41,171 nt of DNA from Armatimonadota bacterium. Its GTDB lineage: Bacteria > Sysuimicrobiota > Sysuimicrobiia > Sysuimicrobiales > Kaftiobacteriaceae. The DNA lies in contig JAVHLZ010000006.1 in the NCBI GenBank assembly GCA_031081675.1, positions 69,087 through 110,257 on the forward strand. The letters run 5' to 3'. The position numbers were made by a program, and so were the translations under genes. Below the pieces are notes generated by a model. It saw only the letters and a program-made list of their open reading frames with translations, had not been told where the DNA came from and did not search any database. This document shows, piece by piece, positions 29,559 to 40,391 of this stretch; the first letter of the stretch is position 1, and every line of letters starts with the position of its first letter.

Positions 29559-31292
29559 GTGACGGTTTTGACGGGTGCGCTGGCGGTCGGCGTCGGCATC
29601 CACCTGGCCCTGACCCTCTTTCTGCTCCTGCGCTATCTGGAGGGCCGTGAGCGGCAGATCGGGTGGTGGGCCGTCGCCTATGCCCTGTTCGCCTCCCACG
29701 TGGTGGCCGAAACCCTTCTCACCCTCACCCCCTCCAGCACTCTGGTCGCCATCCGGCACGCTCTGTTCCTGGCGTCGGCGTGGGCCATGGTGCAGAGCTT
29801 CCGCCCCGACCGGCGGGTCACGATCCTGGCCGTGGTGGGCATCGCTGCCTCCGCGGTTCTGGCGGAGGCGTCCTGGACCGCCGCCGCGGTGGTGGCGTCG
29901 GTGCTGGGCGGGGCCGCGTTTGCGGGCAGCGCCGGCCTGCTGTACGGCCAGGAGCGGGGCCTGCAGACCACCAGCGCCCGGCTGCTGTTCTGGGGGCTGC
30001 TGCTGACCGGGATGCTGGCGCTGGTCTACCCCCTGCTGCGACCGCACCCGGTCCTGGCCGGCGTGGGGGCGGGTTTTTCGGGGCTGTTCACCCTGCTGTT
30101 CAGCATCGGCATCGTCCTGCTGGCCCTCCAGCGCACCCGGGACCTGGTGACCATGAGCGCCATCGCCGAGTCCCTGAACCGCTCCCTGGACGTCCACAGC
30201 GCCGTGAGCCGGGCGCTGGACCTGCTGGTGGACCTGATGCGGCTGAGCAGCGGGTGGATCTACCTGCGCCGCGATGGCGGGTTTGCCATCGCCGCCACCA
30301 AGAACCTCCCCCTGGAACTGGCCGCCTCCGACATGGCCGCCATGGAGGGGGACTGCCGCTGCCTGGAGATGCTCCGCAACGAACAGCTGGCCGACGCGGT
30401 CACCATCGTGCACTGCGAGAGGCTGGAGCAGGCGGGGTGGGACGCGCCCCGCCACGTCACGGTTCCCCTGCGCACCGCCGGAGGCACCATGGGCGTGATG
30501 AACCTGCTCCTGCCCCGGCGGCGCGCCCTGACCAGCCGGGAGCTGGCCACCCTGTCGGCCATCGGCGACCAGATCGGGCTGGCGGCGGAACGCGCCCGGC
30601 TGTACGAGGAAGTGCGGGCCAAGGAGGCGATGCGGGGCGAGCTGCTGCAGAAACTCATCACCGCCCAGGAGGAGGAGCGGCGCCGCATCGCCCGGGAGCT
30701 CCACGATGAGGCGGGCCAGGCCCTGACCGCCCTCATCCTCAACCTGGAGGTGGCCGAGCGCTCGGCCGCGCCGCCGGAGCAGCAGCGGCTGAGCCGCCTG
30801 CGGGGCATCGCCGAGGATACCCTGCGGGAGCTGCGGAAGATGATCTACGACCTGCGCCCCACCATCCTGGACGACCTGGGGCTGGCGGCGGCCATCCGGT
30901 GGTACGTGAAGGAGCACGTGGAGCCCCAGGGGCTGCAGGTGGACCTGACCCTGGCCGGGTTGGACGAGCGCATGCCCCACCACATCGAGACGGCCGTCTT
31001 CCGCATCGTCCAGGAAGCCCTGACCAACGTGCTCAAGCACGCCGACGCCCGCCGGGCCTGGGTCACCGTGGCGCTGGCCGACGGCCAGGTGCGCCTGTCG
31101 GTGACCGACGACGGCCGCGGGTTTGACCCCCAGGCTCTGCCCCGGGCGCGGGACGGCCGGGGGCTGGGGCTGATGGGCATGCAGGAGCGGACGGAACTGC
31201 TGGGGGGGACGTGGAAGATCACGTCCCGGCCTCAGGCGGGCACCCGCATCGAGGCCGTCATCCCCGTGGAGGTCCCATCCGATGGCCATTAA
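29559..31292 (+). CDS. Membrane sensor histidine kinase with GAF domain (NarX/DegS-type HisKA_3)
   Basis: 577 residues. About seven hydrophobic segments (1-195) are followed by a GAF domain (about 205-350). Next come a HisKA_3 dimerisation helix with phospho-acceptor His382 (RRIARELHDEAGQALTALI) and an HATPase domain with the N-box EALTNVLKHADA and DDGRGFDP/GLGLMGMQER. The GAF domain has a cysteine group, Cys266-x-Cys268-x17-Cys286 (DCRCLEM ... VHCERL), which could bind a metal or Fe-S cluster or act as a thiol switch. The partner regulator gene overlaps its end by 11 nt. Proximity to the oxidase locus suggests redox or oxygen sensing (inference). Confidence 0.92.
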   Translation: MTVLTGALAVGVGIHLALTLFLLLRYLEGRERQIGWWAVAYALFASHVVAETLLTLTPSSTLVAIRHALFLASAWAMVQSFRPDRRVTILAVVGIAASAVLAEASWTAAAVVASVLGGAAFAGSAGLLYGQERGLQTTSARLLFWGLLLTGMLALVYPLLRPHPVLAGVGAGFSGLFTLLFSIGIVLLALQRTRDLVTMSAIAESLNRSLDVHSAVSRALDLLVDLMRLSSGWIYLRRDGGFAIAATKNLPLELAASDMAAMEGDCRCLEMLRNEQLADAVTIVHCERLEQAGWDAPRHVTVPLRTAGGTMGVMNLLLPRRRALTSRELATLSAIGDQIGLAAERARLYEEVRAKEAMRGELLQKLITAQEEERRRIARELHDEAGQALTALILNLEVAERSAAPPEQQRLSRLRGIAEDTLRELRKMIYDLRPTILDDLGLAAAIRWYVKEHVEPQGLQVDLTLAGLDERMPHHIETAVFRIVQEALTNVLKHADARRAWVTVALADGQVRLSVTDDGRGFDPQALPRARDGRGLGLMGMQERTELLGGTWKITSRPQAGTRIEAVIPVEVPSDGH

Positions 31293-31932
31293 GGTTCTGA
31301 TCGCCGACGACCACGCCATCGTCCGCGAGGGCGTCCGCATGATCCTCGAGCGGGAACAGGACATCGAGGTGGTGGGCGAGGCGGGGGACGGCCAGCAGGC
31401 CCTGGAGCTGGTGGAGCGCCTGCGGCCCGACGTGGTGATCATGGACATCAGCATGCCGGGCATGGGCGGCATCGAGGCCACCCACAAAGTCAAAGAGCGC
31501 CATCCGGGCGTCGCGGTGCTGGCCCTGACCATGCACGAGGACGAGTCCTACGTCTTCCAGCTGCTGCGGGCGGGGGCCTCGGGCTACGTGCTCAAGCGCG
31601 CGGCCGCCTCCGACCTGGTCCAGGCGGTCCGCTCGGCCGCCCGGGGAGAAGCGTTCCTGTATCCCTCGGTCGCCCGCAAGGTGGTGGAGGACTACCTCAA
31701 GCGGGTCGAGGCCGGGGAGGAGCGGGACCGCTACGACGGACTGACCGAGCGGGAGAAGGAGATCCTCACCCTCATCGCCCAGGGGCTGTCCAACCAGCAG
31801 ATCGCCGAGCGCCTGTTCATCAGCATCAAGACGGTGCAGACGCACCGGGCCCACATCCTGGAGAAGCTGGGCCTGCACGACCGCACCGAACTGGTCCGCT
31901 ACGCCATCCGCAAGGGCCTCATTGAACCCTGA
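31282..31932 (+). CDS. NarL/LuxR-family response regulator (paralogue 2)
   Basis: 216 residues. The receiver has ADDHAIVREG, phospho-acceptor Asp in VVIMDISMP and YVLKRA. The DNA-binding LuxR domain is LTEREKEILTLIAQGLSNQQIAERLFISIKTVQTHRAHILEKL. ATG 31282 lies inside the end of the kinase gene with GGAGGT 8 nt upstream, so it is the co-translated cognate regulator. Paralogue 1 on the other side of the kinase keeps nearly the same recognition helix (FISVKTVQTHRAH versus FISIKTVQTHRAH), so both may bind the same sites. Confidence 0.94.
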   Translation: MAIKVLIADDHAIVREGVRMILEREQDIEVVGEAGDGQQALELVERLRPDVVIMDISMPGMGGIEATHKVKERHPGVAVLALTMHEDESYVFQLLRAGASGYVLKRAAASDLVQAVRSAARGEAFLYPSVARKVVEDYLKRVEAGEERDRYDGLTEREKEILTLIAQGLSNQQIAERLFISIKTVQTHRAHILEKLGLHDRTELVRYAIRKGLIEP

Positions 31933-31985: not shown

Positions 31986-32501
31986 TCAGCGGCCGGTGGC
32001 GATCCGGGTGAGCAGAAAGACGATGTAGCCGTACGTCGCCCAGATGCCGCCCAGGAGGGCCCCCAGCAGGGCCAGGGGCGGGACGGGGTACGGGCTGATG
32101 AGGCCCGGCTGGGGGCTGAGGGCCTGCAGGACCTGCCGGCCGGGCCGGACCGCGGGGCGCCACGCGGGGCGCTCCGCGAGGGTCAGGGCCGCCCGCTGCG
32201 GAGGCTCGGACACCTCCGCCTCGATCTCCGGGTACGGGCGCCCGGACGGCAGCGCCAGGACCGCTCTCCCGGACGCGTCGGTGGTCACCTCTCCCAGGGG
32301 AAGCCAGCCGAAGGCGGTGCGGGCCCGGAAGGCCACGGTGGCGCCTTCCACGGGCTCCCCGGAATCGTCCGTCACCACCGCCGCGACCTGCGGCCGCCCT
32401 CCGGGCCCCGACTCCAGGGAGAGGGCGACGCCGGCGGCCGCCCCCGAGGACAGGAGGAGGATCCCCACCACCGCGGCCGCCGCACTAACGGGCCAGCGCA
32501 T
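31986..32501 (-). CDS. Ig-like domain membrane protein, last gene of the respiratory locus
   Basis: 171 residues. The N-terminal signal/anchor (PVSAAAAVVGILLLSSGAAAG) is followed by an exported beta-sandwich of the carboxypeptidase-regulatory/CNA-B kind (VVTDDSGEPVEGATVAFRA, VTTDASGRAVLALPSG). A C-terminal transmembrane helix (PPLALLGALLGGIWATYGYIVFLL) completes it. ATG 32501 lies within the end of nrfD (17-nt overlap), so it is tightly coupled. I know no named family; an accessory or assembly subunit of the NrfD/Fe-S complex is plausible. It has no cysteines and so no redox centre of its own. Confidence 0.7.
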   Translation of the reverse strand: MRWPVSAAAAVVGILLLSSGAAAGVALSLESGPGGRPQVAAVVTDDSGEPVEGATVAFRARTAFGWLPLGEVTTDASGRAVLALPSGRPYPEIEAEVSEPPQRAALTLAERPAWRPAVRPGRQVLQALSPQPGLISPYPVPPLALLGALLGGIWATYGYIVFLLTRIATGR

Positions 32502-34035
32502 GGGCCACCTCCCCGCCCTGCTCGGTCTCCCGGGTCTCCCACAGGGAGACGATGGGGAACAGCTTGCTGAACACGATGTAGATCAGCAGGAAGCCGGCCA
32601 CGGCTCCGAAGGTAATCGACCACTCCACCCAGGTGGGCGTGTACACCCCCCACCCCTGGGGCGCCCGCTGGATCGGCAGGAACGGCGACTGGAGCGTGGG
32701 GACGATGATCACGTACCGCTTCCACCACGCGCCCACGTTGACCAGCACGGACGCCACAGTCGCCGTGGCGATCGGGCGGGCGCGGCAGAGGGGCAGCAGG
32801 GCCACCAGCACCCACAGCGATGCCACCGCGAGCGTCCCGGCGGCAACCGCCCGCAGCACACCGGCGTCCAGCGTCGCCGCCACCGGCGACGGCGGAGCGT
32901 AGGCCGCGATCGCCAGCACCCCCGACGCCGCCGCCGCCGCCAGGGCCGGCCGGGGCTGAAGCAGGGGAACCCGGGCCAGGCGGGGGACCAGGGACGCCCG
33001 GGGCAGGGTCAGCAGCAGCACCGGGAGCAGCAGCCCGCCCACCTGGGTGAACCAGAACAGCCGGGCAAACGGCCCGCTCAGCACCGCCGCCAGGTAGCCG
33101 CGCTCATGGGAGGCCATCTTGAACGCCGGGACCCAGTACTCGTTGAAGGTGAAGTAGGCGTAGATCAGGCCCAGGGCGATCACCAGGTAGCCCATCCGGC
33201 GGAAGTGGTCTTCGGTGATGTACTCCTCCAGGCGGTAGGCCCACCGGAAGGCGGCCATGGCGGTGACCACGGCCGCCGCCCCGCTGAACAGCGCCCCGGA
33301 GACGAAGTACGGACCGAAGATGGTGCTGTTCCACCCCGCCCGCAGGGTCATGGCCATGATCCAGGACACCACCGTGTGGACCGACACCGCGATGGGGATG
33401 ATGAGGACGGCCAGGATGCCCATGGCCGCCTCCAGGTGGCGGCGCTGGACCTCGGTGCCGCGCCACCCCAGGGCCAGGGCGGTGTACAGCCTCCGCCGCC
33501 ACGCCGGCCCCGCCGCGAACCGGTCCCGGAGCAGGGCGATGTCGGGGATCATGGGCACGTACAGGAACAGCGTGCTGCCGGTGAGGTAGGTGGTGATGGA
33601 CAGGATGTCCCACAGGATGGGCGACTGCAGCCGCCCGTGCAGCACCAGGTTGAGGAGCCGGTCCGGCCGGCCCATATCCACCAGGGGCATCAGGCCCCCC
33701 ATGAGCAGCGACGCGAAGGTGATGGCCTCGGCCATGCGGGTGATCGGCCGCCGCCACTCGGCTCCGGTGAGGCGCAGGATGGCCGACATCAGCGCGCCGA
33801 CGTGGCTGACCCCGATGAAGAACACGAAGTTGGTGATGTAGACGCCCCACATGACGTTGTCCCGCAGCCCGGTCACGCCCAGGCCGTAGCGCAGCTGGAC
33901 GCCGTAGGCGATGAGCCCCCAGAGCGCCACCCCGACCAGAACGCCCATGAGGGCGTAAAAGCCCGGCCCGCCCCCGTGCAGGGAGGCCAGCACGCGGAGC
34001 TCCCGGGGCGAGAAGAGATCCCGGCGGCGCATCAT
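32485..34035 (-). CDS. nrfD: NrfD/PsrC-family integral membrane protein (quinol-interacting subunit)
   Basis: 516 residues with about ten membrane segments. Recognisable blocks are MWGVYITNFVFFIGVSHVGAL, the conserved LVDMGRPDR, HTVVSWIMAMTLRAGWNSTIFGPYFV, NEYWVPAFK, GAWWKRYVIIVPT and YTPTWVEWSI near the end. NrfD/PsrC/ActC proteins carry no cofactor but hold a quinone site and pass electrons to a partner Fe-S subunit. ATG 34035 overlaps the stop of the Fe-S gene (ATGA). In polysulfide reductase or Alternative Complex III the partner set includes a molybdopterin-fold subunit; none is encoded here. The gene symbol denotes the family only. Confidence 0.88.
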   Translation of the reverse strand: MMRRRDLFSPRELRVLASLHGGGPGFYALMGVLVGVALWGLIAYGVQLRYGLGVTGLRDNVMWGVYITNFVFFIGVSHVGALMSAILRLTGAEWRRPITRMAEAITFASLLMGGLMPLVDMGRPDRLLNLVLHGRLQSPILWDILSITTYLTGSTLFLYVPMIPDIALLRDRFAAGPAWRRRLYTALALGWRGTEVQRRHLEAAMGILAVLIIPIAVSVHTVVSWIMAMTLRAGWNSTIFGPYFVSGALFSGAAAVVTAMAAFRWAYRLEEYITEDHFRRMGYLVIALGLIYAYFTFNEYWVPAFKMASHERGYLAAVLSGPFARLFWFTQVGGLLLPVLLLTLPRASLVPRLARVPLLQPRPALAAAAASGVLAIAAYAPPSPVAATLDAGVLRAVAAGTLAVASLWVLVALLPLCRARPIATATVASVLVNVGAWWKRYVIIVPTLQSPFLPIQRAPQGWGVYTPTWVEWSITFGAVAGFLLIYIVFSKLFPIVSLWETRETEQGGEVAHALAR

Positions 34036-34964
34036 CGTCGGGCCTCCCCGGCCGAGGCCGGCTCGGTGGCGGGGGGCGGAGGCGGATACAGGGGGCGCCG
34101 GGGCGGCAGGTAGTAGACCCGGGGCTCGGTCCCCAGCTCCTCCAGCAGGCGGTAGCCGGCGTTGGCGGCCACCAGCTCCGACAGGCGCACGGTCTCCCCC
34201 TGGGAGTTGGTGACGGCGTCCTCTCCCTGGTCGCCGAAGTAGATGGCGCCCATGGGGCACGCGGCCGCGCACGCCGGCAGCCGGCCCTCGGCGAGCAGGG
34301 CCGGGCAGAAGATGCACTTTTCCGTGGTCCCGCGGCGGTGCACCCGGTTCCACTCCATCGCGTAGGGCTCGTCGGGCATGCCGGGGACCTCCGGGTCCAC
34401 CCAGTTGAAGCTGCGGGCCTGGTACGGGCAGGCGGCCATGCAGAACCGGCAGCCGATGCAGCGGGAGGTGTCCTGCATGACGATCCCGTCCTCCCGCTTC
34501 CAGGTGGCCGACACGGGGCACACCTTCACGCACGGCGGATTGTCGCACTGCATGCACGGGCGGGGCAGCCAGTAGGGCGCGCCCAGCTCGTGATCGCGCA
34601 TCTCGTACACCCGGATCCACTCCTGGCCGCCGGGGAGGAAGTGCATCGCCTGGCAGGCGCGGGTGCACTCCCGGCACCCGTCGCAGCGCGCCAGGTCGAT
34701 CACCATCACCCACCGGCGTCCCGAGGCCGCCGCCGGCTCCGCCCGCGGTGGCTTCGCGGCGAAGGCCAGGGCCACGCCTCCGCCTGCGGGCACAGCCTCC
34801 AGGTGTGCCAGGCTGTGGACCCCCTCCGGCCGGGCCACCAGCGCGGGCACCGCGCCCTTCACGCCGCGGCGCCACCGGGCCAGCGGGGCCACCGCCCGGG
34901 AGCCCGACAGGGCGGCCGCCACCGCCGCGAGGGACGTGAGGAACGAGCGTCGCGTCAGGCGCAC
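34032..34964 (-). CDS. Tat-exported four-cluster 4Fe-4S ferredoxin-type subunit (HybA/TtrB/PsrB-like)
   Basis: 310 residues. A twin-arginine signal (TRRSFLTS then a hydrophobic stretch) predicts folded export. Four cysteine groups each suit a [4Fe-4S] cluster: CDGCRECTRAC, CMQCDNPPCVKVCP, CIGCRFCMAACP and CIFC...CAAACP. The order and spacing are those of electron-transfer subunits that partner NrfD-type proteins. A Pro-rich C-terminal tail (about 285-310) has no membrane anchor. GTG 34964 immediately follows the stop of the upstream cupredoxin gene. Likely role: wire between the NrfD quinol site and periplasmic copper proteins. Confidence 0.9.
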   Translation of the reverse strand: MRLTRRSFLTSLAAVAAALSGSRAVAPLARWRRGVKGAVPALVARPEGVHSLAHLEAVPAGGGVALAFAAKPPRAEPAAASGRRWVMVIDLARCDGCRECTRACQAMHFLPGGQEWIRVYEMRDHELGAPYWLPRPCMQCDNPPCVKVCPVSATWKREDGIVMQDTSRCIGCRFCMAACPYQARSFNWVDPEVPGMPDEPYAMEWNRVHRRGTTEKCIFCPALLAEGRLPACAAACPMGAIYFGDQGEDAVTNSQGETVRLSELVAANAGYRLLEELGTEPRVYYLPPRRPLYPPPPPATEPASAGEARR

Positions 34965-35408
34965 CTACCGGCCTCCCAGCACCACCAGCTGACCGATCTG
35001 GCCGGCGTGGTCCGGCGCGCACCCGGCGGCGGCGCAGCCGTAGTGGTAGATGCCGGGCCGCTGCGCCACAAACCGCACCGTCGCCGTCTCCCCCGGAGGG
35101 ATCGGGGGGACCACCACGTTCAGGGCCGCCACCACAAAGCCGTGGGCGGCCTCCGGATCCCCGTTGTGGAGCCGCAGGATGACCGTGTCCCCCGCATTCA
35201 CCACCACAACCGGCGGGACCCAGTGCCGCACGGCGGTCTCCCCCGCCTCCAGGACGTGCAGCCACAGGTCGAACTGGCGCACTTCGGGCACGACCGGGGG
35301 TGCCGCCGAGACAGGAGGGCGCGCGGACCGCAGCACCACGTACCCGGACGCCCCGGCCACGACGGCCGCGACGATCACCGCCGACAGCGCCAGCCCCCGG
35401 CCGTTCAC
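34965..35408 (-). CDS. Membrane-anchored cupredoxin with CuA-like motif (C-x4-C-x3-H-x2-Q)
   Basis: 147 residues. An N-terminal anchor (about 5-27) is followed by a cupredoxin beta-sandwich (VVVNAGDTVILRLHN). Candidate ligands are His89 (EAAHGF), Cys125, Cys130, His134 and Gln137 (GCAAAGCAPDHAGQ). This is the CuA order His...Cys-x(n)-Cys-x3-His-x2-Met with n=4 instead of 3 and Gln in place of the weak Met ligand. It shares the CAPDH signature with the cupredoxin at 35926. Alternatives are a type 1 site with one Cys, or a Cys125-Cys130 disulfide. GTG 35408 has AGGAGG 6 nt upstream. Confidence 0.85.
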   Translation of the reverse strand: MNGRGLALSAVIVAAVVAGASGYVVLRSARPPVSAAPPVVPEVRQFDLWLHVLEAGETAVRHWVPPVVVVNAGDTVILRLHNGDPEAAHGFVVAALNVVVPPIPPGETATVRFVAQRPGIYHYGCAAAGCAPDHAGQIGQLVVLGGR

Positions 35409-35418
35409 GGCGCGCCTC

Positions 35419-35877
35419 CTATCGGACGACAAAGGTGCCCTTCATGCCGGCCTCGTAGTGGCCTTCCACGTGGCACCCGATCTCGAACGTCCCCTTGCGC
35501 TGCGGGGTGAACTCCAGCGTCACCGACCGCCCCGGCGCCAGCTCCACCTCCATCAGGGCCTCCGCCTCAATTTCCACCCCTGCAGTCTCCACGGTCACCT
35601 CGACGCCCTTGAAGTAGGTGTTCTCCTTGGCCCACTCCTCCAGCTCTTCACCGGCCAGCCCCGCCCGGGGCAGGCTGTACACCATGAACTCGTGCTTCTG
35701 CTTGCCGCGGTTCACCAGGACCAGCTCCACCGGCGTGCCCGCGGTCACCGTCACCCGAGAGGGCGTGAAGCTCATCTCGTTGAGCACGACGGTGACCTTC
35801 TGGGCCTTGGGGGCTCCCGCCGCGGGGCCGATGGCCGCCAGGGCCAGAGCGATCCCCAGGATCACGACCGTCCTCAT
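35419..35877 (-). CDS. Exported blue-copper (type 1) cupredoxin
   Basis: 152 residues. It has a cleavable signal peptide (hydrophobic to about 20, AAGA) and a classic plastocyanin/azurin-like site: His62 (KQKHEF), Cys135, His140 and Met145 (GCHVEGHYEAGM, C-x4-H-x4-M). An acidic insert at 75-110 (EELEEWAKEN, VEIEAEALMEVE) might form a docking face. Of the four copper proteins in the locus it is the only ordinary type 1 candidate and the only one with a cleavable signal, so it could be the mobile shuttle. ATG 35877 is preferred because GGAGG lies 8 nt upstream; ATG 35883 would be too close. Confidence 0.88.
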   Translation of the reverse strand: MRTVVILGIALALAAIGPAAGAPKAQKVTVVLNEMSFTPSRVTVTAGTPVELVLVNRGKQKHEFMVYSLPRAGLAGEELEEWAKENTYFKGVEVTVETAGVEIEAEALMEVELAPGRSVTLEFTPQRKGTFEIGCHVEGHYEAGMKGTFVVR

Positions 35878-35925
35878 CCGCATCCCTCCTCACCTCCATC
35901 GGTCTCGTCGTGGACTGCGATCGCG

Positions 35926-36384
35926 TCAGCGTCGCCCTTCCACCACCACCAGGTGCCCCACCATCCGGTCGTGATCCGGGGCGCAGGTCCCGGTGGCCGG
36001 ATCGTGGGGCAGGTAACAGCGATACTCGAAGATGCCGGGCCGGTCGGCCGCGAACTCCACGACCTCGGCCGCCCCCCCGTGCAGGGCGCCGGTGCGCACG
36101 CCCAGCCCGGCAAACTCCAGGCCGTGGCGGAAGTGGGACAGGTTGAGGACCCGCAGCCGCACCGTGTCGCCCCGCCGCACGACCAGCAGCTGGGGATCGA
36201 ACAGGTGGCTTTCGGCCGGCCCGCCGATGGCCCCCCGCCCGGTGATCAGCAGCTCCAGGTCCACGCGCGCCGGCGGGGAGCCGCCCGCCGGCGGGGACGC
36301 CAGCAGGGTCAGGGCGCTGATTCCCAGGGCGACCAGGGAGATCGCCAGGGAGACCCCCGCCACCACCGACCGCGCCCCCTCCAT
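35926..36384 (-). CDS. Membrane-anchored cupredoxin with CuA-like motif (C-x10-C-x3-H-x2-M), copy B
   Basis: 152 residues with an N-terminal anchor (about 8-30). Candidate ligands are His87 (or His84) in SHFRHGLEF and the C-terminal loop Cys123, His127, Cys134, His138, Met141 (YRCYLPHDPATGTCAPDHDRM). The second half, C-x3-H-x2-M, is the exact CuA spacing seen in CoxB of the same locus. The first Cys is 10 residues before the second rather than 3, with an extra Pro-His between. It is clearly paralogous to the neighbour at 36390. ATG 36384 is 5 nt after that gene's stop. Confidence 0.85.
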   Translation of the reverse strand: MEGARSVVAGVSLAISLVALGISALTLLASPPAGGSPPARVDLELLITGRGAIGGPAESHLFDPQLLVVRRGDTVRLRVLNLSHFRHGLEFAGLGVRTGALHGGAAEVVEFAADRPGIFEYRCYLPHDPATGTCAPDHDRMVGHLVVVEGRR

Positions 36385-36389
36385 ATCCG

Positions 36390-36845
36390 TCACTCGGTGA
36401 CGATCAGGTAGCCGCGCATCTGCTCGTGGTCGGGCGTGCAGTCCCGGGTCGCGGGATTGTGGGGCAGGGCGCACCGGTACACGAACACCCCGGGCCGGTC
36501 GGCCACGAACCGCAGGTCGTCGCTGGCGCCGGGAGCCAGCCGCCGGGTCCGCAGACCGTAGCCGGTGATCTCCAGCTGGTGGGCAAAGGCGTCGGGGTTC
36601 GCCACGGCCAGGTCGACGGTGTCTCCCACCCGCGCCACCAGCATGGTGGGGTACCAGCGGTGGGCCACCATGCCCTGGCCGGTGAACGTGGCCACCACCA
36701 TGGACAGCGGCAGGGTGGCGGCCGGACGCGGCGCCGCAGCCCCCTCCAGCCGGGGACTCCGGCCGTAGGCCAGCAGGCTGGTGGCCAGGGCGACGACTGC
36801 CACCACGAGGGCGAAGTAGGCGATCCCGTCGGTGCGACCCGCCAT
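36390..36845 (-). CDS. Membrane-anchored cupredoxin with CuA-like motif (C-x10-C-x3-H-x2-M), copy A
   Basis: 151 residues. The N-terminal anchor is about residues 8-27 (IAYFALVVAVVALATSLLAY). Ligand candidates are His89 (AFAHQLE), Cys125, His129, Cys136, His140 and Met143 (YRCALPHNPATRDCTPDHEQM). The frame YxCxxPH...M-x-G-x-L is that of plastocyanin-like proteins, but 13 residues containing Cys and His stand between the Pro-His and the Met. A binuclear CuA-like centre, a type 1 centre with either His, or a disulfide are all possible. ATG 36845 has GGAGGTGG upstream and follows a promoter-like sequence. Confidence 0.85.
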   Translation of the reverse strand: MAGRTDGIAYFALVVAVVALATSLLAYGRSPRLEGAAAPRPAATLPLSMVVATFTGQGMVAHRWYPTMLVARVGDTVDLAVANPDAFAHQLEITGYGLRTRRLAPGASDDLRFVADRPGVFVYRCALPHNPATRDCTPDHEQMRGYLIVTE

Positions 36846-37018: not shown

Positions 37019-37585
37019 TCAGCCGGTGACCAGGTACAAAGTGGGGTAGATGAACACCCACACCACGTCCACGAAGTGCCAGTACTTGACGGCCCCCTCC
37101 ACCGGCCAGTAGTCGTGGGGGCCGTACCGACCCCGGCGCCCGTGCAGGTACACGCCAGCCAGCAACGCGACCCCGCTGGCGACGTGCAGGGCGTGCATGC
37201 CCGTCAGGGTGAAGAAGATGGTCCCCACCCGCCGGCCGGGGGGAAAGTGGGCAAAGGCCTGCGCCCACTCCACCCCCACCCCTGCCAGGAACAGCAGGCC
37301 CAGGCCGACCGTGGCCAGGGTGTTGCGCGCGAACAGGGACCGGTGCCCCCGGGCGATGGCCGCTTCGGCGCGGTAGGCGGTGAGGCTGCTGGCCAGCAGC
37401 ACGGCGGTGATGGCCAGCCCCAGGGGCTGGTTGAGGCCCTCGGGCCGCTCCAGGCCCAGCAGGTAGTAGCGGGCGGCCAGCAGGGCGGAAAACAGGAACC
37501 CCTCGGACAGCAGGAACAGCCACAGGCCCAGCCGCCGGAGATACAGCCGGCTGTAGCGGGGGCGGGCGGCGACGCGGGTGGCCAC
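37019..37585 (-). CDS. coxC: Cytochrome c oxidase subunit III
   Basis: 188 residues with five predicted membrane helices, the short form of subunit III. LWLFLLSEGFLFSALLAARYY contains the conserved helix-III Glu. FFTLTGMHALHVASGVALLAGVY and AVKYWHFVDVVWVFIYPTLYL are the family's C-terminal signature. It supports the stability of subunit I. GTG 37585 is preferred with AGGAG 5 nt upstream; GTG 37591 overlaps the subunit IV stop (GTGA) but is too near the ribosome-binding site. Confidence 0.93.
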   Translation of the reverse strand: MATRVAARPRYSRLYLRRLGLWLFLLSEGFLFSALLAARYYLLGLERPEGLNQPLGLAITAVLLASSLTAYRAEAAIARGHRSLFARNTLATVGLGLLFLAGVGVEWAQAFAHFPPGRRVGTIFFTLTGMHALHVASGVALLAGVYLHGRRGRYGPHDYWPVEGAVKYWHFVDVVWVFIYPTLYLVTG

Positions 37586-37587
37586 GG

Positions 37588-37791
37588 TCACTCCTCCCCG
37601 GGGCGCCACAGATCGGCGACGTGCATGAAGTACCACACGATGAGCGCGGCGTCGGCCAGGTTCAGCAGCACCAGCCACGGCAGCGGATGCGGCACCCGGA
37701 ACGCCACGGGCACCTCCAGGACGGTGAGCGCCAGCAGGGCGCCCAGCACCCGCGTGCCCACCCGCAGGCGCGCGGCCAGTTCAGAGTCCAT
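37588..37791 (-). CDS. Small subunit IV of cytochrome c oxidase (CoxD/COX4_pro-like)
   Basis: 67 residues, two membrane helices (VLGALLALTVLEVPVAF and WLVLLNLADAALIVWYFMHVADL). The FMHVADLW end is typical of bacterial cytochrome oxidase subunit IV. ATG 37791 overlaps the end of coxA by 11 nt and its stop overlaps a GTG of coxC, so all three are coupled. Confidence 0.82.
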   Translation of the reverse strand: MDSELAARLRVGTRVLGALLALTVLEVPVAFRVPHPLPWLVLLNLADAALIVWYFMHVADLWRPGEE

Positions 37792-39616
37792 GGGCCCTCC
37801 CCTCCCCGGATCCGCCGGCGGCGGCCATCACAGCGTGCACGGCCCCCGGCACCCCGTAGCCGTAGGGATCCCCCACCACCTGGGGCGGGTGGGGGAAGTT
37901 GCCTTCGGGGGGAGGCGACGGCACCTGCCACTCCAGCGTCCGCGCCCCCCAGGGGTTGGCCGCGGCCCGAGGCCCGCGAAGCCAGCTGCGCACCACGTTG
38001 AACAGGAACACCAGGATGCTGGCCCCCAGCAGGCCCGCCATGACCGAAATCCACAGGTTCACCCCGGCCAGGGACGCCGGGTAGTCGGCGATGCGCCGGT
38101 TCATCCCGTGCACGCCCGCCCAGAACATGGGCAGGAACGTGGCGTTGTAGGCCAGGAACATCCACCCGAAGTGCACCCGGCCCAGCCGCTCGTCATACAT
38201 CCGCCCGGTCACCTTGGGGAACCAGTAGTACAGGCCGCTGAAGAGGGCGAAGATCATCCCGCCCACGATGGTGTAGTGGAAGTGGCCGACCACGAAGTAG
38301 GTGTCCTGCAGGTGCAGATCGGTGGGGACGTCGGCGTTGAAGATGCCGGTCACGCCCCCGATCAGGAAGTTGAACAGGAACCCCAGGGCGAAGAGCATCG
38401 GGGTGCGCAGCCACAGCCGGCCCATCCACAGGGTCCCCAGGGCGGCCAGGAACACGAGCCCCGTGGGGATGGAGATGAGCTCGGTGGTGGCCATGAAGGG
38501 GCCCAGCAGCGACTCCCGCATGCCGCTGGTGTAGAGGTGGTGCGCCCACACCACGAAGCTCAGCCCCACGATGCCCAGGAACCCTCCCACCACCCAGGGG
38601 TAGGCGTACAGGGGCTTGCGGGAGAAGTGGGTCAGCACCTCCAGGGCGACGCCGAAGGCGGGCAGGATCATGATGTAGACCGCCGGGTGGGAGTAGAACC
38701 AGAAGATGTGCTGGTACAGGAGGGGCATGCCTCCCCGGGCCGGGGCGAAGAACGCCATCCCCGCCTCCCGGTCCAGCAGGACCATCAGCAGCGCCGCCGC
38801 CAGGTACTGGGTGGCGGTGACGCTGATCAGCGACGCGGCGAACACCGACCACACGAAGATCGGCAGCCGCCGCCAGGACATGCCGGGAGCCCGCAGCCCC
38901 ACGATGGTGGCCAGGAAATTGATCCCGCCCAGGATGGAGGACAGCCCGAAGGTGATCACCGCCAGGTTGAACAGGACCTGGCCGCTGGCGTTGACCACGC
39001 TGAGGGGCGGGTAGGCCGTCCACCCGGTGTCGAATCCGCCGGCCAAGGGCGTGGCCACCAGCAGCACCGCCACCGGCGGCACCAGCCAGTAACTGAGGGC
39101 GTTGAGCCGGGGGAAGGCCATGTCCTCGGCGCCGATCATCAGCGGCACCAGGTAGTTGCCGAAGCCGCCCAGGAGGGTGGCCACCGCCACGGCGATCATG
39201 ATGATGCCGTGCAGGCTCATCAGGTGGGTGTAGGCGGCGGCTCCCATCACCGTCGGCCCGGGGGCGGCCAGCTCCACCCGCATCACCAGCGCCATCGCGC
39301 CCGCCACCACGAACAGCGCCACGAAGGTGACCAGGTACTGCACCCCGATCACCTTGTGGTCGGTGGTGAACCGGACGTAGCGCCGCCACGTGTGGTCGGG
39401 CTCGTGGCGCACCGGCAGCCCCACCCACCCCCGGGCCCAGGCCTCCCACAGACCGACGCCCAGCAGCCAGCCGGCCAGCCCGATCACGTAGCCGACGGTC
39501 ACCCAGACCTCGGCCCGCGGGGGGCGCCCCACGGCCCACCCGGCCGCCAGCGTCGCCCCGGCGCCCAGCGCGAAACCGACCAGCCCCCACCCGATCCCGC
39601 GCGCGATCATGCGCAC
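37781..39616 (-). CDS. coxA: Haem-copper oxidase subunit I, A2 (YS-motif) type
   Basis: 611 residues. It reduces O2 to water at a haem-CuB centre and pumps protons. CuB ligands are His310 in SHPAVY (with Tyr314 for the His-Tyr crosslink) and His359-His360 (AHHLYTSGM). Haem ligands are His445 and His447 (GHFHY) plus an N-terminal His in THLMSLHG. The helix VI motif reads FYSHPAVY instead of GHPEVY: the D-channel Glu is absent and the Tyr-Ser pair marks the A2 subfamily known from the Thermus and Rhodothermus caa3 enzymes. An extra N-terminal membrane segment is present. GTG 39616 has GAGGTGA upstream. Confidence 0.95.
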   Translation of the reverse strand: MRMIARGIGWGLVGFALGAGATLAAGWAVGRPPRAEVWVTVGYVIGLAGWLLGVGLWEAWARGWVGLPVRHEPDHTWRRYVRFTTDHKVIGVQYLVTFVALFVVAGAMALVMRVELAAPGPTVMGAAAYTHLMSLHGIIMIAVAVATLLGGFGNYLVPLMIGAEDMAFPRLNALSYWLVPPVAVLLVATPLAGGFDTGWTAYPPLSVVNASGQVLFNLAVITFGLSSILGGINFLATIVGLRAPGMSWRRLPIFVWSVFAASLISVTATQYLAAALLMVLLDREAGMAFFAPARGGMPLLYQHIFWFYSHPAVYIMILPAFGVALEVLTHFSRKPLYAYPWVVGGFLGIVGLSFVVWAHHLYTSGMRESLLGPFMATTELISIPTGLVFLAALGTLWMGRLWLRTPMLFALGFLFNFLIGGVTGIFNADVPTDLHLQDTYFVVGHFHYTIVGGMIFALFSGLYYWFPKVTGRMYDERLGRVHFGWMFLAYNATFLPMFWAGVHGMNRRIADYPASLAGVNLWISVMAGLLGASILVFLFNVVRSWLRGPRAAANPWGARTLEWQVPSPPPEGNFPHPPQVVGDPYGYGVPGAVHAVMAAAGGSGEGRAHGL

Positions 39617-39656: not shown

Positions 39657-40391
39657 CTACGGGGACCGGGCGCTCTCCGCCCACTCGCGAAACGCCTCCG
39701 GGTCCACCACCCGGACCGGCGAGGCCATCAGGTGGTGGCCCAGGCCGCACAGCTCGGCGCACTGGACCCGGAAGTTCACGTCGGCGGCCCGGTCGCCGAC
39801 CCGGGTGGGCGTCACGTACACCGTCGTCACCATGCCGGGCACCGCGTCCACCTTCACCCGGAACGCCGGGATCCAGAACGAGTGGACCACGTCGGCGGCA
39901 GTCACCTCGAACCGCACTCGCCGGCCCACCGGCAGGACCAGCTCCCGGCTGGTGACGCCCGCGTCGGGATAGACGAACCGCCACACCCACCGGGAACCCT
40001 CCACCCGCACCACCAGGTCCGCATGGCGATCGGCGCGCAGCTCGGCCAGACCCCGCAGGCCGGGGTTGAAGATGACGTAGACGGCCAGGCCGCCCGTGAC
40101 CGCCAGCCAGATCCACGGCACCGCCGAGCGCCCCCGCAGCGGGGGGCCGTCGTCGGGAGGTTCCCCGCGGCCGCGGAACGCCACCACCGAGTACGCGAGG
40201 GCGGCCAGCACGAACGTGAACACCGGGACCGCCAGCAGGAGGAGAAAGCGGAAGGCGTCGTCGATGATGCGGGCCTCCCGGGCGGCCGCCACCGGCAGCA
40301 GGTGGGCGCGTCCCGCCGCCAGCAGGCCCAGGACGGTCAGGACGCCCCACAGCACGGCCACCGCGCCCGCGTGCCGCGCCACCGGCCTCAC
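39657..40391 (-). CDS. coxB: Cytochrome c oxidase subunit II with CuA site, no haem c domain
   Basis: 244 residues. Two N-terminal membrane helices (about 45-70 and 92-108) precede a periplasmic cupredoxin domain. The CuA ligands are all present: His170 (VVHSFWIP), Cys211, Glu213, Cys215, His219 and Met222 (CAELCGLGHHLM), with Trp135/Trp137 in the usual electron-entry region. It ends shortly after the CuA domain and lacks the C-terminal haem c domain of caa3 oxidases, so electrons must come from a separate donor. GTG 40391 overlaps the regulator stop (GTGA). Confidence 0.95.
   Translation of the reverse strand: MRPVARHAGAVAVLWGVLTVLGLLAAGRAHLLPVAAAREARIIDDAFRFLLLLAVPVFTFVLAALAYSVVAFRGRGEPPDDGPPLRGRSAVPWIWLAVTGGLAVYVIFNPGLRGLAELRADRHADLVVRVEGSRWVWRFVYPDAGVTSRELVLPVGRRVRFEVTAADVVHSFWIPAFRVKVDAVPGMVTTVYVTPTRVGDRAADVNFRVQCAELCGLGHHLMASPVRVVDPEAFREWAESARSP

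Follow-up and report, generated by a model that had tools for sequence, protein, structure and literature searches.

Three membrane-anchored cupredoxins with CuA-like ligand sets and altered cysteine spacing in an FeS/NrfD gene module of Sysuimicrobiota

Gene Content of the Locus

The window, a stretch of DNA of 41,171 nucleotides that was analysed over its whole length, originates from a Sysuimicrobiota genome (formerly Armatimonadota CSP1-3). Its minus strand carries, in this order, coxB, coxA, the gene of subunit IV, coxC, four cupredoxin genes designated CU1, CU2, CU3 and CU4, and the genes of an FeS protein, an NrfD-type protein and an Ig-like protein. CoxB (39657..40391, minus strand) possesses the canonical CuA motif, H170 and C211-x3-C-x3-H-x2-M, and is followed on the same strand by CoxA (37781..39616), prokaryotic oxidase subunit IV (37588..37791) and CoxC (37019..37591). 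About 174 bases separate the end of coxC from the start of CU1. Along the row from CU1 to the FeS gene the spacings are 5, 42, 10 and 0 bases, and the genes further downstream overlap. A scan for promoters and terminators found none.

CU1 (36390..36845, minus strand), for which a model and orthologues in five other genomes are available, comprises a TM helix and a cupredoxin domain with H89 and, further along the chain, C125-x10-C136-x3-H140-x2-M143. Its ligand loop through to the C-terminus (36393..36473, minus strand) reads CALPHNPATRDCTPDHEQMRGYLIVTE. CU2 (35926..36384, minus strand) likewise joins a TM helix to a cupredoxin domain, with H87 and C123-x10-C134-x3-H138-x2-M141, as does CU4 (34965..35408, minus strand), where H89 is followed by C125-x4-C130-x3-H134-x2-Q137. 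CU3 (35419..35883, minus strand) is an ordinary type 1 cupredoxin with one Cys and the motif C-x4-H-x4-M, and is not CuA-like. The rest of the row, also on the minus strand, encodes an FeS protein with a twin-arginine-like signal and 16 Cys (34032..34964), an NrfD-type quinone-interacting membrane protein (32485..34035; PF03916) and, as the conserved last gene of the module, a small protein of Ig-like/carboxypeptidase-regulatory-like fold (31986..32501). When a CU1 alignment was used as the query, the nearest named relatives of CU1 were Armatimonadetes bacterium CSP1-3 and two Armatimonadota/Armatimonadetes MAGs; a single CU1 protein as the query against genome contigs gave nothing.

Ligand Motif of CU1, CU2 and CU4

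The sequence-only reading had placed a His…Cys…Cys-x3-His-x2-Met/Gln set in three of the four tandem cupredoxins, and its coordinates and residue numbers proved accurate. The order of the ligands is indeed that of CuA as in CoxB (H170, C211-AEL-C-GLG-H-HL-M). As had been proposed, CU1, CU2 and CU4 are stand-alone and membrane-anchored, each having a single domain and one N-terminal helix, and the Cys-Cys gaps, x10 in CU1 and CU2 and x4 together with Gln in CU4, are the same in every orthologue. The Pro-His that had been noted in the x10 loops does occur, but it is not conserved and is replaced by Pro-Tyr in one of six CU1 and five of six CU2 sequences. This loop His was considered as a third His ligand and was ruled out: it is Tyr in half of the 12 CU1/CU2 sequences and therefore is not an obligatory ligand.

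Each of the three proteins contains exactly two Cys. A search of the whole window in six frames for C-x3..16-C-x3-H-x2-[M/Q] gave four occurrences, namely CoxB, CU1, CU2 and CU4, and C-x3..10-C-x3-H-x2-[M/Q] arises in ~1e-4 of shuffled copies when each protein is shuffled. Canonical CuA has been described as the fixed motif Hx34Cx3Cx3Hx2M (PMC6189053). The upstream His precedes Cys1 by x35, close to the canonical x34, in most CU1, CU2 and CU4 sequences, and by x37 in some CU2 that have a two-residue insert. Cys2-x3-His-x2-Met is present in 6/6 CU1 and 5/6 CU2, and CU4 has Gln for Met in all copies read. The exact Cys-x3-Cys is absent, with x10 in CU1 and CU2 and x4 in CU4, and because of this spacing the three proteins do not belong to canonical CuA, though they may still work like it. 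The Pfam COX2 model (PF00116) did not match CU1 or CU2 of the window and gave 15.2 bits for CU4, below the cut-off of 22. The type 1 pattern, a single Cys in C-x2..9-H-x3..4-M, describes CU3; CU1, CU2 and CU4 depart from it by the second invariant Cys and by H-x2-M/Q.

Conservation and Distribution

Six genomes of the phylum contain CU1 and CU2 as adjacent genes. All five ligand positions are kept in all six CU1 orthologues, and four of them in all six CU2 orthologues, where Met141 is present in five and is Gln in one. The seven full-length CU4 sequences keep all five positions including Gln, and an eighth CU4, split over two contigs (genome G012), has a loop of identical pattern. The gap is exactly x10 in 12/12 CU1/CU2 sequences from the six genomes and x4 in every CU4 from eight genomes; the orthologues, which are ~35–70% identical, show invariant ligand positions and fixed gap lengths. 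Among 42 mixed CuA, CU1/CU2 and CU4 sequences, the columns of G74, H89, G119 and C125 are invariant, and those of C136 and H140 are conserved in at least 90%. Such conservation bears on the proposal that the Cys pair forms a structural disulfide only, or that the domains are degenerate and hold no copper. A disulfide would be sterically easy across a 10-residue loop, and copper binding itself is predicted; however, the His and Met/Gln are kept as strictly as the Cys, and a disulfide alone needs neither. This explanation appears very improbable.

Loops with x10 or x4 spacing were observed solely in this phylum. No such loop was found elsewhere among the matches whose loops were read in ~700 sampled genomes (343 genomes and a second, partly overlapping set of 384, with about nine candidates scored per genome and part of the matches read), and with a sample of this size and partial reading their absence outside the phylum is not proved. 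Outside the phylum, every loop that was read belonged either to a C-x3-C protein, NosZ or single-domain CuA, or to a type 1 domain. In agreement with the sequence-only reading, no described family with x10 or x4 spacings turned up. A full-text literature search for the canonical motif string matched the PmoD paper only (PMC6189053), and the words “cupredoxin” and “copper” do not occur in the Sysuimicrobiota genome paper.

Two further loops were observed. A second CU4-like gene with a broken frame (L187, G017:C21:36800-38600) has the loop CALPGCAEDHAEQ, and another odd loop, CPIPCDHDRSTPSARKM, with C-x3-C and displaced His and Met, is encoded at L045:16925-17407.

Predicted Structure

CU1 and CU4 were modelled with AlphaFold2 at mean pLDDT values of 94.3 and 94.7, with about 96–98 in the ligand loop blocks; the alignments behind the models included CuA sequences, and the models are thus not blind to CuA. 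In the CU1 model, the N-terminal helix spans residues 4–28, a strand ends at Cys125, residues 130 and 135 are isolated bridge residues, and a short turn begins at His140. These features suggest that the CU1 insert forms a small hairpin that could return Cys136 to the site. Nitrosocyanin was the first fold match, and NosZ, ba3 CuA (2cua, 6pty) and NirK were also near the top. The joint presence of these proteins in the list confirms the fold but not the metal.

Relationship to CuA and Type 1 Domains

Profile comparison with hhalign matched CU1/CU2 with single-domain CuA at 7e-26 and with NosZ CuA at 1.5e-20, both alignments running through Cys2, His and Met, and with NirK at 1.7e-14, where the alignment stops at Cys1. 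The loops align as though seven residues in CU1/CU2, or one in CU4, had been inserted after Cys1. CU4 and CU1/CU2 profiles match each other at 9e-27. The best NCBIfam match of CU4 is the CuA end of NosZ (2.4e-11), and among solved structures it matches ba3 CuA domains best, with Cys aligned to Cys. CU4 and CU1/CU2 also have Cys-x-x-Asp-His in common; the Asp before the loop His occurs in a few CoxB but in none of the canonical single-domain or NosZ loops of the set. The CuA ancestry of the CU4 loop is well supported by these sequence comparisons; that of the CU1/CU2 loop is likely, not proven.

The strand core is less discriminating. By sequence, the CU1/CU2 core matched type 1 NirK domains and nitrosocyanin best among solved structures, and type 1 and CuA domains are equally close to it. 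Trees of the cupredoxin core (about 80–97 columns) did not place CU1/CU2; the AU test gave p 0.48 for grouping with NirK and p 0.40 for grouping with CU4, and the three tested clades were accepted. Taken alone, the strand core is compatible with CuA as well as type 1 ancestry. The core results, together with the first rank of nitrosocyanin among fold matches, are in line with a mononuclear type 1-like site, in which Cys125, His89, His140 and Met143 would hold one copper within a long C-x14-H-x2-M loop and Cys2 would be a non-ligand or second-shell residue. Loop swaps have demonstrated that a CuA scaffold can carry type 1 sites with several loop lengths (PMC7480511). On the other hand, Cys2 is invariant in all CU1, CU2 and CU4 loops, H-x2-M/Q has the CuA spacing whereas type 1 sequences of the set have H-x3 or x4-M, and the NirK profile match does not extend beyond Cys1. 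A mononuclear site therefore seems unlikely.

Among the closest known systems, the CuA domain of NosZ (TIGR04246/TIGR04244), which ranks among the top family matches for both CU4 and CU1, has the same fold, upstream His, Cys and Cys-x3-His-x2-Met order. It differs in its C-x3-C and in being a domain of a catalytic enzyme, whereas CU1, CU2 and CU4 have x10 or x4, are stand-alone and membrane-anchored, and CU4 carries Gln. Subunit II of the Thermus ba3 oxidase (2cua/1ehk/6pty), a near fold match, similarly combines one N-terminal TM helix with one CuA-type domain in about 150–170 residues, but it has C-x3-C and is an oxidase subunit, while CU1, CU2 and CU4 are encoded by genes of their own next to a complete CoxB. 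The phylum also has canonical CuA-like cupredoxins (L018, L045, L046), which are single-domain proteins, mostly with an N-terminal hydrophobic stretch. They contain C-S-P-x-H-x2-M-x-G and gave the strongest CU1/CU2 profile match among the outside groups tested, but have C-x3-C without an insert. These stand-alone proteins with canonical C-x3-C-x3-H-x2-M are encoded at L045:11465-12034, L045:13461-13898, L046:4963-5367 and L046:6874-7356, and in L018, several of them near nosZ, and they are natural intermediates.

The type 1 domain of three-domain NirK (2dv6, 6tfd) resembles CU1/CU2 in its core strands and is their best sequence match among solved structures; unlike them, it has one Cys, another loop and H-x3/4-M, and the match breaks off at Cys1 or directly after it. 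Nitrosocyanin (1iby) has a mononuclear red copper site with a single Cys, and against its model TIGR03096 CU1, CU2 and CU4 scored 20.0, 27.2 and 17.3 bits, far below the cut-off of 142.85. AcoP of Acidithiobacillus ferrooxidans likewise belongs to a respiratory chain and is a single-domain cupredoxin whose loop has an unusual length (PMC4059628), but this loop is C-x6-H-x4-M and the site is mononuclear and green. PmoD/AmoD proteins are membrane-anchored cupredoxins that arrive at a CuA centre in a non-canonical way (PMC6189053), with Cx7MxHxnC forming the site in a homodimer and in another part of the fold; judged by residue positions, this motif is absent from CU1, CU2 and CU4.

Neighbouring Genes and Electron Transfer

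NrfD proteins, which interact with quinones, have FeS proteins as partners in many complexes (PMC8076601). The nearest NCBIfam families of the two neighbours are DsrO and DsrP. The FeS protein scored 189.8 against the DsrO equivalog, just below the cut-off of 200, and the NrfD protein scored 98.6 against that of DsrP, far below the cut-off of 350. DsrO/DsrP and related pairs share with the module an FeS + NrfD gene pair and belong to quinone-linked complexes (PMC8076601), but the adjacent candidate carriers here are cupredoxins in place of a DsrJ-type heme c. From its 16 Cys, the FeS protein is expected to hold four [4Fe-4S] clusters, and its twin-arginine-like start would place it on the outer side, the side also predicted for the cupredoxin domains.

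The FeS-NrfD pair directly follows CU4 in the genomes where the flank of CU4 was examined, the FeS/NrfD/Ig-like set is conserved there in several genomes, and FeS/NrfD genes occur with or near CU1-CU2 in 6/6 genomes. In the window, the set (31986-34964) stands without a molybdopterin or heme subunit, and it represents a candidate quinol:cupredoxin oxidoreductase. In genome G020, the module lies near a molybdopterin enzyme that has FeS and NrfD proteins of its own, and the CSP1-3 genome contains the FeS/NrfD pair in two consecutive copies (L038:5281-10689). A histidine kinase/response regulator pair adjoins the cupredoxin/FeS/NrfD module in most genomes (window 29559-31932; L037, L038, L039, L041, L043, L044), which suggests regulated expression of the module. 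Pfam Cytochrom_C (PF00034) matched one protein of the genome (G000:C4:58570-59253; L141, L142), whose two domains lie in a single 610-residue frame, the count being of Pfam cytochrome c family matches.

The gene neighbourhood also bears on a role in copper delivery, where the Cys pair would cycle between a disulfide and a Cu(I)-bound state and would help to assemble the CuA centre of CoxB rather than transfer electrons. Two Cys with an adjacent His and Met, the membrane anchor and the neighbouring coxBAC would suit such a role, and Cys pairs of cupredoxins can appear as a disulfide in crystals, as in PmoD (PMC6189053). However, among the genomes examined the module follows coxBAC in the window alone and elsewhere stands with histidine kinase, response regulator, FeS and NrfD genes, so that electron transfer fits better; moreover, the CuA set is retained in full, down to the upstream His. 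Copper delivery is quite improbable.

Discussion

The chances seem slightly better than even that CU1, CU2 and CU4 are membrane-anchored, CuA-derived electron carriers, probably dinuclear, partnered with the FeS/NrfD proteins and, in this genome, with coxBAC. Their metal loop would derive from the CuA loop, with seven residues added after Cys1 in CU1/CU2, and one added and Met changed to Gln in CU4; every CuA side-chain position (His, Cys, Cys, His, Met/Gln) is retained. A dinuclear CuA-type centre would be the likeliest, with both Cys bridging and the insert looped out as a short hairpin. The proteins would act as one-electron carriers on the periplasmic side. The tight order CU1-CU2-CU3-CU4-FeS-NrfD suggests that electrons come from a quinol-oxidising FeS/NrfD pair, and the flow might run from quinol through NrfD/FeS to the cupredoxins and, in this genome, to CoxB. 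Copper binding, the presence of two coppers, the partners and the direction of flow are what we infer from the sequences and gene order.

Several features count against this explanation: CU4 has no axial Met, and the Cys of CU1/CU2 are 10 residues apart. In CuA, the backbone carbonyl of one residue is an axial ligand, and the corresponding residue falls in the altered stretch. The CuA interpretation first proposed for the locus is thus partly supported and is the most economical reading, the copper state being predicted. The fuller proposition, that these are natural dinuclear CuA sites in which 10 or 4 residues separate the Cys, one with axial Gln, in free-standing membrane-anchored carriers which together with FeS/NrfD replace cytochrome c and complex III, is tentative and somewhat doubtful.

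If true, a large insert separating the two bridging thiolates is compatible with the Cu2S2 core, and CU4 would represent a naturally occurring equivalent of axial Met replacement. The loops suggest that the CuA site, for which a single fixed spacing has long been assumed, has natural variants. The operon would provide a testable model of copper carriers replacing cytochrome c in the respiratory chain of an uncultured phylum.
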